A stretch of 43,691 bases of DNA from Muribaculaceae bacterium (GTDB lineage Bacteria > Bacillota > Clostridia > Lachnospirales > Lachnospiraceae): NCBI GenBank assembly GCA_023663465.1, contig JAMPHJ010000010.1, positions 1 to 43,691 on the forward strand, given 5' to 3'. This document shows, in pieces, positions 1,267 through 36,656 of the stretch (position 1 is its first letter; each line of letters begins with the position of its first letter). Under the pieces are notes generated by a model that saw only the letters and a list, made by a program, of their open reading frames with translations, ran no database searches and was not told the DNA's origin. Both the position numbers and the translations under genes were made by a program.

Positions 1267-2121
1267 CTATATCCTGTCGCTAAAATAGCTCTTATATCCT
1301 TCCCCGAAAATTTCCGTGGCGCTCGTAATCACCATGAAGGCTTCCGCATCTTCTTCTTTTACGATATCTTCCACCTGCGGGGAAATCTGTTTTTTGGCTG
1401 CGCACATCAGAACCTTTTTCTCTTTGCCGCTGAATGCCCCATGCCCTTCAATCTGGGTAACGCCGATATCCAGCTCCTCTAAAATCCGTTTCGTAATCTC
1501 CGGGGCTTTATCGCTGATGATATAGAGCAGTTTCGCCTCGTCCTTTCCATATAGAACGATATCCAGCATCAGGGAGCTGACTACCACCGTAATCCCCGCA
1601 TATAAAGCGGCGTCAATATCCTTGAAAACAATACCAGATATCGTAATAATAATAACATCTGTTACAAAAAAAAGCACTCCTGTTTTCAGGTACGGCAATT
1701 TTCTGCGAAGCCATTTCACAATAATATCCATGCCGCCCGTGGTGGAGCCCACCTTCATAATCATACCGATGGAAACCGCGTATAGTACGCCACCCGCAAG
1801 AGCTGCTAACAGTATATCATCTGTCGCCGCTCCCAGGGGCGCTAAAATATTGGCAAAGATGGAAATAAGCGCCGTAGCGTAAATCGTCGAGATCGTAAAC
1901 CTGACACCGAATTTCCAGATGGCAAATAACAGAATCGGTATGTTCAGTATAAAAATCAACGTACCTGTTTCTATGTGCAGCGATTTGCTGATAATAATCG
2001 CAATCCCCGTAACGCCGCCCGGCGCCATATTGTTTGGGTCGATAAACAGACTGATTGCCGCCGCATTGATAAATGCAGAAACGGTTATGACGGCATATTT
2101 TTTCCAACTTTCCATTTTCAT
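1267..2121 (-). CDS. YitT family membrane protein (DUF161 + DUF2179)
   Basis: 284 residues. The first ~180 residues are hydrophobic with five or six likely membrane segments and contain the family motifs IDPNNMAPGGVTGIAIII and GSTTGGMDII. The C-terminal ~85 residues form a soluble DUF2179-type domain (KLLYIISDKAPEI through DAEAFMVITSATEIFGEGY). The family is abundant in Firmicutes but its substrate is not established. The start is the ATG 13 bases after AGGAG; a second ATG two codons later is possible. The GH25 gene follows 10 bp downstream. I saw no convincing promoter or terminator in the 137 bp upstream. Confidence 0.9.
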   Translation of the reverse strand: MKMESWKKYAVITVSAFINAAAISLFIDPNNMAPGGVTGIAIIISKSLHIETGTLIFILNIPILLFAIWKFGVRFTISTIYATALISIFANILAPLGAATDDILLAALAGGVLYAVSIGMIMKVGSTTGGMDIIVKWLRRKLPYLKTGVLFFVTDVIIITISGIVFKDIDAALYAGITVVVSSLMLDIVLYGKDEAKLLYIISDKAPEITKRILEELDIGVTQIEGHGAFSGKEKKVLMCAAKKQISPQVEDIVKEEDAEAFMVITSATEIFGEGYKSYFSDRI

Positions 2122-2258
2122 ATGCTCTTACAAGCTCCTATCGGTTCTGACTTCTGCTCCTGCCACAGACAGCAGCATTTTCCCCATATAGTATGTGAAT
2201 TTCCCTTCAAATCATACGTCTGCTTTCCGCCTTATGGATTGTGAACCCTATGCCGGCG

Positions 2259-3482
2259 TCAAATGCTGGCACGCACCAGTTCCGGGCGGTAGCCATTTTC
2301 TTTCAGTGCCGTGATAATCTGGTTTTTATGCTCCGTACCGTAAGCTTCTAACGTAATCCGCAGCTCCACCGCGGCGTTTCTGTTTATCGATACGAACTGA
2401 TTATGCTCCAGTTTGATAACATTGCCATTCTCTCTGGCAATGACATCGGCTACCCTGGACAATTCCCCCGGCTTGTCGGGAAGCAGTACGGATACGGAGA
2501 AAATTCTATCCCTCAGGACAAGTCCCTGCTGTACGACAGAAGACATCGTAATCACGTCCATATTGCCGCCGCTTAGAATCGCCACGGCTTTTTTATTCTT
2601 GATATCCATGTGCTTGAGCGCGGCCACCGTTAAAAGCCCTGAGTTTTCTACAATCATCTTATGGTTTTCCACCATATCCAGAAAGGCTACCACCAATTCT
2701 TCATCCGCCACGGTAATGATATCATCCAGATTCTGGCTGACATAAGGAAAGATAACCGTCCCCGGCGTTTTAACCGCGGTTCCGTCTGCAATCGTATTCA
2801 CCACGCTAAGGGTCTGTACCTTGCCGGCGCGGATGGACTCCTGCATACAGTTTGCCCCCGCAGGCTCCACACCGATTACCTTAATCTTAGGATTCAACAG
2901 CTTGGCAAGCGTCGAAACGCCGGTAGCAAGTCCGCCACCGCCAATCGGAACGAGAATATAATCCACCAGAGGAAGCTCCTTGATAATTTCCATCGCAATC
3001 GTGCCCTGTCCCGTCGCCACATCTAAATCGTCAAAAGGATGGACAAACGTATAACCTTTTTCCTCTGCAAGCTGATAAGCATAGTTGCATGCCTCATCAT
3101 AGACGTCACCGTAGAGAACCACCTCTGCGCCGTATCCTTTCGTGCGGTTTACTTTAATCAGCGGCGTGGTCGTCGGCATAACGATGGTCGCTTTTACGCC
3201 GTAGCATTTGGCCGCATAGGCAACCCCCTGCGCATGATTTCCGGCAGAGGCCGTAATCAGCCCTTTCTGCCTATCCTCTTCCGATAAGGTACTCAGCTTA
3301 TAATAGGCGCCCCGCACCTTATACGCCCCGGTAAACTGCATGTTTTCCGGTTTCAGATAGACTTTTGCGCCCGTCTGCGCACTGAAATAATCGCTGTATA
3401 CAAGTTTTGTCTCCATTGTCACCCGCTTGACGACTTCACAGGCTTCTTCAAATTTTTCTAAGGACAATTCTTTCTCTTCCAT
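2259..3482 (-). CDS. ilvA: Threonine ammonia-lyase (threonine dehydratase), PLP-dependent, with ACT domain
   Basis: 407 residues from the ATG at 3482, which has a GGGAGG site 8 bases upstream; a longer GTG-started frame to 3530 lacks such a site. The enzyme converts threonine to 2-oxobutanoate and ammonia, the entry to isoleucine synthesis or threonine catabolism. The PLP-binding lysine is K55 in TGAYKVRGA; SAGNHAQG and the glycine loop IGGGGLATG are present. The last ~80 residues (VSVLLPDKPGELSRVADVI onward) form one ACT-like domain. Length and a single ACT domain resemble the shorter TdcB/ThrD-II class rather than the ~510-residue E. coli IlvA. It lies downstream of ftsY in the same direction; no branched-chain genes are adjacent, so biosynthetic versus catabolic role is undecided. 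Confidence 0.93.
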   Translation of the reverse strand: MEEKELSLEKFEEACEVVKRVTMETKLVYSDYFSAQTGAKVYLKPENMQFTGAYKVRGAYYKLSTLSEEDRQKGLITASAGNHAQGVAYAAKCYGVKATIVMPTTTPLIKVNRTKGYGAEVVLYGDVYDEACNYAYQLAEEKGYTFVHPFDDLDVATGQGTIAMEIIKELPLVDYILVPIGGGGLATGVSTLAKLLNPKIKVIGVEPAGANCMQESIRAGKVQTLSVVNTIADGTAVKTPGTVIFPYVSQNLDDIITVADEELVVAFLDMVENHKMIVENSGLLTVAALKHMDIKNKKAVAILSGGNMDVITMSSVVQQGLVLRDRIFSVSVLLPDKPGELSRVADVIARENGNVIKLEHNQFVSINRNAAVELRITLEAYGTEHKNQIITALKENGYRPELVRASI

Positions 3483-34299: not shown

Positions 34300-34338
34300 A
34301 AAAGAACGGGCAAGAACAATGACTGCTCCTACCCGTTC
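34300..34338 (-). terminator. Terminator of the rhomboid-like/sigma-like operon
   Basis: Minus strand: GAACGGG ... CCCGTTC (34304-34338) with an inner 5-bp helix GAGCA/TGTTC separated by a small internal loop, followed by TTTTAT. The stretch 34339-34481 has no gene; it holds a small hairpin GTAAAA/TTTTAC (34342-34359) and is otherwise featureless. Confidence 0.8.
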
Positions 34339-34481: not shown

Positions 34482-34985
34482 TTATACAGTAAACGCCATC
34501 ATGGACAGCTTGGAAAGAATAATTTCCTGTATTTTCACGCCTGCCGCCTTCTTCTGCGCCAGATTCATCTGCACAAATTCATGAAGCGGCATTACCCGGT
34601 TCTGATAACTTGTTTTTTCTTTTCCAAAAAGAGACTTTTTCTCAACAAGCAGGCAGATTTTTACTTTTGCCTTCAATTGCATATAGGTTTTATAGGAAAA
34701 CATATCCTGGGTCATATAATAAAACTGGCTTTCTAACGTGGTATCCGCCTGGGTATCTTTCATGATATAGTGTTCTATAATACTCTTTATCTTAAACGGC
34801 ACCATTTCATGCGCCAACAGCTCCGCATAACTATAGCGCGCGCCAAAATACAGGCTGCTTACATCCTGCATATAATATTTAAAATCATCATTGGTCTCTT
34901 CCACTGCCTGCTCTTTCGCTATTTCCTGCTCCATGCCGCTTCCTTCCATCCTATCCTGCGCTCTCGTTATCGTATCTTCACTCAT
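34482..34985 (-). CDS. Uncharacterised protein co-translated with the sigma-like protein
   Basis: 167 residues. The acidic first ~35 residues are probably disordered. The rest (FKYYMQDVSSLYFGARYSYAELLAHEMVPFKIKSIIEHYI...) looks helical with aromatic residues, and it ends hydrophobic (LSKLSMMAFTV) without a clear membrane segment. No known family recognised. Its ATG overlaps the stop of the sigma-like gene (ATGA), indicating tight translational coupling and perhaps a physical partnership. It is the last gene before an intrinsic terminator. Confidence 0.78.
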   Translation of the reverse strand: MSEDTITRAQDRMEGSGMEQEIAKEQAVEETNDDFKYYMQDVSSLYFGARYSYAELLAHEMVPFKIKSIIEHYIMKDTQADTTLESQFYYMTQDMFSYKTYMQLKAKVKICLLVEKKSLFGKEKTSYQNRVMPLHEFVQMNLAQKKAAGVKIQEIILSKLSMMAFTV

Positions 34986-35728
34986 ACGCCGCTATCCTTC
35001 TGTAGGGACTCTATTTTATCCCCGCTGATTTGGATTGCGTCTAAAATGCTCTTTCTGCTCATTCCGGTCTCTTGCGCCAGCTCGTCCACCGTTACCTTGC
35101 GATGCAAATCTTCTGCCAGCTCGTTTGCCTTATCCGCCACCAGATTGACTTTATCGGCAAGTTTTTTATCTTTGCTTTCCTCTTTTCCATTCTCGGCAAT
35201 CGCTTCTTCCATCGCGTCCATAATCATCCTGCCAAGCGCCCCTTGCGCTTCCCTGGCATGTTCAAATGCCCCCAGCATCGTAACGCCCATCGCAACTGCC
35301 GCATTGCCTTCGCCGATTAAGTCTTCCAGAAGCACACCCTGTCCCGTATAAAGCTTGGCGATTTCCACTACATGGGGCAGGAAAACCTGAATCAGAAGAT
35401 TCTGCGCTGCACCATCCCCCGCCATAGCGGATAGTGTTGCCGCCTCCGTTTCCCCTTCCGACAGCTTAGGCAGCTCTTCTAACTGCCGCAGATAGTCGTC
35501 CAGATAATCCGCCTCTTCCCGGCTGATATAGTCATCTAAGTTTACCGGTTCCCCAATGCCGATTTTATGCTGCCTGAAATAATCGTACACGGCTTCTAAC
35601 TGAGGCTCTGAAAGCCCCATGCCGTCAAACGCCTCTTTTATCTGCTCTTCTAAAAGGCAGTTTCCCTGTTCTTTCGCCTGCCGCTTTAATTTTTCCAGTG
35701 TCTGCGTGAATTGTTGTTCCCGTTCCAT
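34982..35728 (-). CDS. Degenerate RpoD-like sigma-70 protein lacking region 4
   Basis: 248 residues from the ATG at 35728, 6 bases after AAAGGAG; the frame is open to 35845 but that would overlap the upstream gene and has no RBS. Residues 8-60 resemble sigma region 1.1, 72-92 region 1.2, and 103-150 region 2.1-2.2 (NLLIQVFLPHVVEIAKLYTGQGVLLEDLIGEGN, compare RLVVSIAKKY.GRG...DLIQEGN of RpoD). Residues 150-176, where 2.3-2.4 should melt and read the -10, lack the tryptophans and YATWWIRQ-like motif. Residues 195-240 resemble region 3 (ELAEDLHRKVTVDELAQETGMSRKSILDAI). Region 4 is absent. It could bind RNA polymerase core without directing normal promoters; this is inference. Confidence 0.8.
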   Translation of the reverse strand: MEREQQFTQTLEKLKRQAKEQGNCLLEEQIKEAFDGMGLSEPQLEAVYDYFRQHKIGIGEPVNLDDYISREEADYLDDYLRQLEELPKLSEGETEAATLSAMAGDGAAQNLLIQVFLPHVVEIAKLYTGQGVLLEDLIGEGNAAVAMGVTMLGAFEHAREAQGALGRMIMDAMEEAIAENGKEESKDKKLADKVNLVADKANELAEDLHRKVTVDELAQETGMSRKSILDAIQISGDKIESLQKDSGV

Positions 35729-35795: not shown

Positions 35796-36656
35796 TTAAT
35801 GTTTGACATGGGTATGCGTATATAAATGTTCTTCGCAATACTCATAATTCCCGTCGCACTTCGAGCAGAAACGGAACTGTAAATCCGGGCTGTCTTTTTC
35901 CGTCCTGCCGCAGATAGCGCATTTATGCTTCGTAATGCCGCTGCTCCCCCGTCTGATATCCCGCTTAAACTCCTGCCTCCTATGAATCTGTTTCGGATTC
36001 AGATGCATCATATTCCTGGACGTCACAAAAAAGACAATAAAATTAAACAGGGATGCCGCAATCGCAAATTTGATATACATCCCGCCCTGTAAAAAGGAAA
36101 AGATGAGTATAATGCCATAAATAATCCCCAGCCATTTTACCTTAATCGGAATGATAAACATCAACAGTACGGACACGTCCGGGAAAGTCGCCGCAAACGC
36201 TAAAAAGATAGACATATTGATGTAATAAGTGCTAAAATACATGGAATTTATCAGAAAATACATCTGGGCTCCCTGCATCGCAATCTGCTCCGCCTGGAAC
36301 AAATAGGCAAACGCCATCGCCAGAAAACTTCCCGCAATCGTAAACAAAATTCCCTCGAAGATGTAGACATTGTAGCGGTAAGTCCCCCAGGTTCTTTCCA
36401 ATGTCGTACCGATAGAGCAATAAAAATACAGCATCAGCAGCGTGAAAAAGATATTCCCTTCGCTCGGCGGAATCAGAATCCATGTCACAAGCCGCCATAT
36501 CTGCCCATGCAGAATCGCATAAGGATCCAGTGTCAGATAAAAAACAAGCCAGGGCGCGACAAGCTCTGCCACATATCCTATCGCGTAACAGATAACCAGA
36601 ACCACCGACAGGTTCCGAATCGCATATTTTCCGAATTTTCTTTCAAATGAACTCAT
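35796..36656 (-). CDS. Rhomboid-like membrane protein with C-terminal zinc-finger-like domain
   Basis: 286 residues. Six likely membrane segments lie between about residues 15 and 225. The loop GTTLERTWGTYRYN resembles the rhomboid GxxxExxWGs motif, but the catalytic GxSG serine motif is missing, so it would be a pseudo-protease. The last ~45 residues carry CAICG, CSKCD and YCEEHLYTHTH, a likely zinc-binding domain on the cytosolic side. It is first in the operon with the sigma-like and 167-residue genes. The start ATG follows GGGG at 9 bases. No promoter stood out in the upstream region. Confidence 0.82.
   Translation of the reverse strand: MSSFERKFGKYAIRNLSVVLVICYAIGYVAELVAPWLVFYLTLDPYAILHGQIWRLVTWILIPPSEGNIFFTLLMLYFYCSIGTTLERTWGTYRYNVYIFEGILFTIAGSFLAMAFAYLFQAEQIAMQGAQMYFLINSMYFSTYYINMSIFLAFAATFPDVSVLLMFIIPIKVKWLGIIYGIILIFSFLQGGMYIKFAIAASLFNFIVFFVTSRNMMHLNPKQIHRRQEFKRDIRRGSSGITKHKCAICGRTEKDSPDLQFRFCSKCDGNYEYCEEHLYTHTHVKH

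Follow-up and report, generated by a model that had tools for sequence, protein, structure and literature searches.

A promoter-blind paralogue of RpoD conserved in Lachnospiraceae, a plausible competitor for core RNA polymerase

The minus-strand gene at positions 34982–35728 of the window (the whole stretch of 43,691 nucleotides analysed here) encodes a 248-residue promoter-blind paralogue of the housekeeping sigma factor RpoD. It belongs to a real, conserved family whose anatomy is well supported; judged from sequence, a mechanism in which the protein binds core RNA polymerase and does not initiate is plausible. We placed the protein in class A of this family, the names of classes A, B and C having been coined in this analysis and class C forming no clean clade. 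The open reading frame has exactly the limits given in the initial annotation, which named no strand. Its ATG follows AAAGGAG, a good ribosome-binding site, and an alternative, longer start at 35845 would overlap the upstream gene, whereas the shorter form matches the starts of the orthologues, which align here. The true rpoD of the host lies on another contig (contig 5), is full length with both region 2.3 and region 4, and shares 28% identity with the sigma-like protein.

The protein is a homologue of RpoD with regions 1.1, 1.2, 2.1–2.2 and 3.0–3.1. A profile of 38 class A sequences (A1) was aligned by hhalign with ten full-length RpoDs at a probability of 99.85, residues 6–243 of A1 lying on residues 7–265 of RpoD, and a PDB sequence search led to SigA (7l7b) with E 1.1e-11 for the single protein and E 3.1e-26 for the profile. 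The Pfam matches of the single window protein to r1.1, r2 and r3 each fell under the gathering score; at E ≤0.1, these domains were matched in 27, 35 and 37 of the 38 family members, respectively. A second profile (A2) consisted of 14 class B sequences, and one iterated profile that had absorbed RpoD served for gene finding only, never for classifying. The region 1.1-like domain occupies residues 7–63 (35540–35710, minus strand; Pfam r1.1 E 3e-4, and hhalign), the region 2.2 core motif DLIGEGN (DLIQEGN in RpoD) residues 136–142 (35303–35323, minus strand), and the region 3.0–3.1-like part residues 193–235 (35024–35152, minus strand), the protein ending before the sigma finger and region 4. The sigma features present in the window's class are thus the core-contact region 2.1–2.2, with its Gln changed to Gly in class A, and region 1.1. 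Set beside RpoD/SigA, the group 1 sigma, the protein is homologous from region 1.1 to 3.1 and its 2.2 core motif differs at one residue, but it lacks the aromatics and net basic charge of 2.3–2.4, the 3.2 finger and region 4. The domain content read in the initial annotation and the descent from a housekeeping-type sigma are both borne out, the latter by hhalign, the clade analysis described below and a common alignment.

The loss of both promoter-reading parts, 2.3–2.4 and region 4, is supported by sequence comparisons across the family. In the window protein, 2.3–2.4 appear as residues 160–184 (35177–35251, minus strand), an acidic replacement that carries MIMDAMEE and is devoid of the RpoD aromatics. 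The common alignment comprised 10 RpoDs together with 34 proteins of class A, 40 of class B and 9 of class C; of 103 rows, 9 that were short, divergent or duplicate had been dropped, as had the single intermediate. In this alignment, region 2.3 holds 5.0 aromatics per protein in RpoD against 0.3 in class A, 1.0 in class B and 1.7 in class C, and the region 4 columns have an occupancy of 0.00 in the window's class. The net charge of 2.3 and 2.4 together is −5.4 in class A versus +3.2 in RpoD, and with 3.0 included the sum is +5.2 in RpoD and −4.6 in class A, −4.0 in class B and −5.3 in class C; the basic charge of region 2.1 is also gone in class A, falling from +5.4 in RpoD to +0.4. The truncated set of 174 proteins (104 class A, 59 class B, 10 class C and 1 intermediate) was compared with 23 control sigmas. 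At E 1e-3, the region 4 profile matched none of the truncated proteins and 21 of the controls; the 2.3 pattern likewise matched none of the former and 18 of the latter, the five control misses being SigF/SigG types, and a WW pair occurred in none of the 174. Weaker region 4 matches (E 1e-3 to 1) were found in 25 of the 174, each covering at most about 35 residues. Three of the 38 class A members have weak Pfam Sigma70_r4 matches (best E 0.0011), which probably reflect the region-3 helix-turn-helix, because the proteins end after 3.1. The absent region 4 and the gutted −10-reading segment devoid of tryptophans, as first noted from the window alone, were therefore confirmed, and a simple truncation, in which relatives would keep these parts, was not seen: none of the 104 class A proteins has region 4 at E 1e-3, the 2.3 pattern or a WW pair.

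The sigma-like gene is intact and under purifying selection. None of 122 extracted proteins has an internal stop, 120 being complete and the remaining 2 cut by contig ends, and the median dN/dS is 0.13 over 76 pairs, which are not independent of one another. Within class A, the mean frequency of the top residue is highest in region 2.2 (0.75), followed by 2.1 (0.70), 2.3 (0.69), 3.1 (0.64) and 2.4 (0.62); the retained core-contact segment of the earlier description is thereby upheld by the homology of 2.1–2.2 and by 2.2 being the best conserved region of the class. In the common alignment, 2.2 and 3.1 share the highest conservation in class B, and in class C 2.2 is surpassed by 3.1, by 3.0 and, slightly, by 2.1, an order that counts against a simple story of 2.2 only; the conservation of 2.2 could be partly structural. 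The seven-residue core motif contains 6 of the 13 invariant columns both among the 38 class A orthologues of A1 (p 4e-8) and in class B (A2; p 3e-8). In 103 of the 104 class A proteins, Gly (DLI/VGEGN) takes the place of the motif's Gln, a core-binding residue in sigma-70 and sigma-32; because of this replacement, core affinity in class A may be weakened or the mode of binding altered. At least 47 of the 59 class B proteins and 8 of the 10 in class C retain the Gln, and 8 of the 59 class B proteins do not match the core motif pattern. Of the 104 class A proteins, 100 carry the MIMDAMEE-type segment, as does an intermediate linked to the membrane protein gene; 1 of the 59 class B proteins has it, and none of the 10 in class C.

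In a tree of 87 rows (65 truncated), made by a quick method with no bootstrap, the truncated paralogues form one clade (SH-aLRT 98.9) set apart from RpoD, from three group 2 sigmas of full length and from eight sporulation sigmas; 15 additional class A rows were left out, together with 12 rows that were long-branched, short or duplicate. A branch with support of 90 and 92 separates class A from the others; with many weak inner branches (37 of 84 open), the relations among the three classes are unsure. Among 103 class A proteins measured, the median length is 247 residues and 99 fall between 240 and 255. Class B proteins mostly have 230–340 residues and usually region 1.1, and class C proteins have about 200 and lack it. 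Class C members L190, L196, L199, L201 and L210 share the start MHDDFYQ[MV]YLEE, and their tails after 3.1 are mostly acidic; class B members L114, L117, L123 and L124 end in or near short His-rich stretches (e.g., HHHSHHHES), possibly metal binding, and L120 and L125 lie a few genes from apparent hrcA and dnaK, named by eye from sequence. In 20 class B-type regions examined, no neighbouring gene was common to more than 4. The intermediate (L171) adjoins the membrane protein and carries DLVQEGN plus MIMDAME.

Of 70 Lachnospiraceae genomes sampled, 47 have a promoter-blind paralogue (11 with class A, 36 with class B or C), and the genes of all 47 were extracted; among the matches listed, 23 of the 70 had no truncated paralogue and none had two. 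Second short or mid-length matches fetched from 8 genomes all had region 4. The class B profile, run on 36 class A genomes, brought up a further sigma in G087 and in G487 (311 and 350 residues, both full-length group 2 types); the other matches listed beyond RpoD and the class A protein were weaker, and seven of eight fetched proved to be SigE, SigF or SigG, the eighth being L222. Outside the family, the matches listed have frames of RpoD length, short exceptions aside, both in 131 genomes from other families of the order and in 143 genomes of a class-wide sample (142 from other orders). The two samples together contain six short exceptions, five with region 4 and the sixth an RpoD cut by a contig end with its 2.3 intact. 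Because the outside matches listed are of RpoD length or prove to have region 4 or to be a cut RpoD, the truncated family appears, within the genomes sampled, to be confined to Lachnospiraceae. Separately, P0001 matches 9 phage records, all unannotated faecal contigs of 4.5–8.7 kb, at 26–31% identity, and 8 plasmid records at 23–31% identity, 5 of them under annotated RpoD or sigma-70 and 3 with no annotation; given these matches, a mobile origin from phage or plasmid is unlikely.

In the window's branch, the sigma-like gene sits between two partners. The upstream gene (35796–36656, minus strand) encodes a hydrophobic, distantly rhomboid-like membrane protein of 286 residues, whose Cys/His tail (residues 244–283; 35808–35927, minus strand) is a probable zinc domain, metal binding being suggested by residues invariant in 31 sequences: H244, C246, C249, C264, C267, C274, H277, H281 and H283. 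The best Pfam match among the 31 upstream membrane proteins is to DUF7577, in the tail (E 1.4e-4). Likeness to the GlpG rhomboid consists of a weak profile match to the homologue 2nr9 (E 0.17) and an invariant W54-R55. The rhomboid motif is GxSG, with a His at the expected membrane position; the upstream protein, unlike GlpG, has N-M-S-I at GxSG and no conserved His at that position, and since the catalytic dyad is not recognisable, it is probably not a protease. The downstream gene (34482–34985, minus strand), whose start overlaps the sigma-like stop (ATGA), encodes a 167-residue protein of no known family. By hhalign, its probability of similarity to RpoD is 0.1; in PDB its profile finds nothing beyond a match at E 0.49, and its Pfam matches are not consistent. 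Of the two partners first described as unknown, the 167-residue protein thus remains so, while the upstream one shows a distant rhomboid likeness and a conserved Cys/His tail. A terminator-like hairpin of 16 pairs follows the third gene (34304–34338, minus strand); it is a consensus match, of a kind found 5 times versus 2.7 expected in shuffles, and stands ahead of an M16 peptidase neighbour, the dehydratase-activase neighbour being divergent.

Whether the three-gene operon is conserved in Lachnospiraceae, a question raised in the initial annotation, is answered in favour of conservation by a survey of 103 loci (80 kept of 91 found in the genome collection, plus 23 others including the window's own), all located by the sigma-like protein alone. 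The membrane-protein gene is upstream on the same strand in 103 of 103, within 100 bases in 87 and within 410 in the rest; the third gene is present in 92, within 100 bases in 87 of these and overlapping in 38. One locus where no third gene was detected is L047, from the cultured species Kineothrix alysoides, which has a class A protein. Among 250 Lachnospiraceae genomes, class A (E below 1e-60) occurs in 37 and the third gene in 32, with both in 30 (Fisher p 9e-30, not corrected for relatedness), and the 167-residue family occurs almost only alongside class A sigma-like genes. Two genomes have the third gene without class A: G512 carries a very divergent sigma-like gene there (L156), and G128, which is 69% complete, has ftsY in its place (L155). 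In L155 (positions 1565–2500, minus strand), this gene for the SRP receptor lies between the membrane-protein gene and the third gene. The membrane protein is present in 236 of the 250 genomes, whether or not a sigma-like gene adjoins it. In genomes without class A, a different gene usually stands beside it (identified as pyruvate kinase in the one of that length tested with Pfam), so the sigma-like and third genes appear to have joined an older gene, that of the membrane protein.

What the family does may be read from which parts of RpoD are kept. According to PMC4598750, region 2.2 makes the main sigma–core contact with the beta-prime coiled coil, 2.3–2.4 bind the −10 element, and region 1.1 mimics DNA in the channel. 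With 2.2 kept, 2.3–2.4 lost and the charge reversed, the protein has the look of a core-binding, non-initiating competitor. Like the core-binding modulator, decoy or anti-sigma suggested in the initial annotation, core binding, competition and control by partners are our inference, and we give roughly even chances to the reading that the paralogue competes with RpoD for core RNA polymerase, is unable to initiate, and is controlled in the window's branch by its operon partners. It would bind core at the beta-prime coiled coil through regions 2.1–2.2, would be unable to recognise or melt promoters, and would compete with RpoD, lowering or redirecting housekeeping transcription. The acidic surface and region 1.1 would perhaps block the DNA channel, an idea that fails for the whole family because class C lacks region 1.1. 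In the window's branch, availability of the paralogue would be set by the Cys/His-tailed membrane protein and the 167-residue partner, with the MIMDAMEE segment in place of 2.3–2.4 as their likely docking site; such a segment may contact the membrane protein or the third protein, as it is confined nearly to class A and the linked intermediate. A profile that picks up sporulation sigmas elsewhere, and may miss ECF sigmas and sigma-54, matches nothing at E 1e-10 beyond RpoD and the class A protein in 13 of 36 class A genomes, 10 of which are at least 90% complete; this suggests that the target is RpoD or core. On the same count, the function does not seem to rely on sporulation sigmas, and a sporulation role is not general.

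The best-surviving alternative, which we nevertheless consider unlikely, is a sigma mimic that would take the place of RpoD in binding an anti-sigma, or some other regulator that binds RpoD, and so free RpoD. PhyR of alphaproteobacteria, an ECF-like protein with a receiver domain, is such a mimic and frees EcfG through NepR; it resembles the present protein in its sigma-derived fold and in presumably not initiating, but the latter is derived from RpoD, has region 1.1 and lacks a receiver. The sigma-2 face that some anti-sigmas cover (2.2; PMC4598750) is kept and DNA reading is lost, as in a mimic, and the Cys/His tail of the upstream partner could be the bound regulator. However, no linked anti-sigma is evident in class B, given that no neighbour is common to more than 4 of 20 regions, and the membrane protein is near universal (236/250) with or without an adjoining sigma-like gene. 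Quite unlikely, in our judgement, is a re-use of the sigma fold as a scaffold for the membrane protein, unlinked to polymerase. The class A gene stands beside the membrane-protein gene at all 103 loci, and the MIMDAMEE-type motif tracks that linkage (present in 100 of the 104 proteins of class A, as well as the linked intermediate); however, classes B and C occur without it in the regions examined, and the core-contact motif is retained in most members of all three classes.

We regard as very improbable a split sigma half that takes region 4 from another protein, in the manner of SigO-RsoA. The protein does end where region 4 would begin, and a partner gene overlaps its stop codon; SigO-RsoA of Bacillus subtilis (PMC10141391) also has sigma domains on a polypeptide lacking region 4. 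Here, however, the partner is no region 4, being without similarity to RpoD (hhalign 0.1), with E 0.49 as its best PDB match and Pfam matches inconsistent; the −10-reading residues that a split sigma needs are gone too, and class B has no fixed partner in the regions examined. A decaying truncated copy of rpoD, for which the lost domains could be cited, has next to no probability, being contradicted by the 122 proteins free of internal stops, the dN/dS of 0.13 and the presence in 47 of 70 genomes.

Titles and opening lines of abstracts in the literature searched held no description of such a promoter-blind RpoD family. In this sense the initial view of a candidate undescribed system stands, but the window's operon is one branch of a Lachnospiraceae-wide family and not a lone candidate. 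To our knowledge, most regulators of sigma usage described so far are RNAs or proteins of unrelated descent that bind to sigma or to polymerase. Extending the reading of a core-binding competitor, we tentatively suggest, with some doubt, that single-copy RpoD paralogues throughout the family may bind core and set the level of housekeeping transcription, and that in one branch a rhomboid pseudoprotease with a zinc tail may hold them at the membrane, which would couple polymerase availability to a membrane signal. If the competitor reading is true, a widespread family of single origin, derived from the housekeeping sigma itself and with its DNA-reading face made acidic, would represent a new kind of polymerase control, and this control would operate in an abundant family of gut bacteria.
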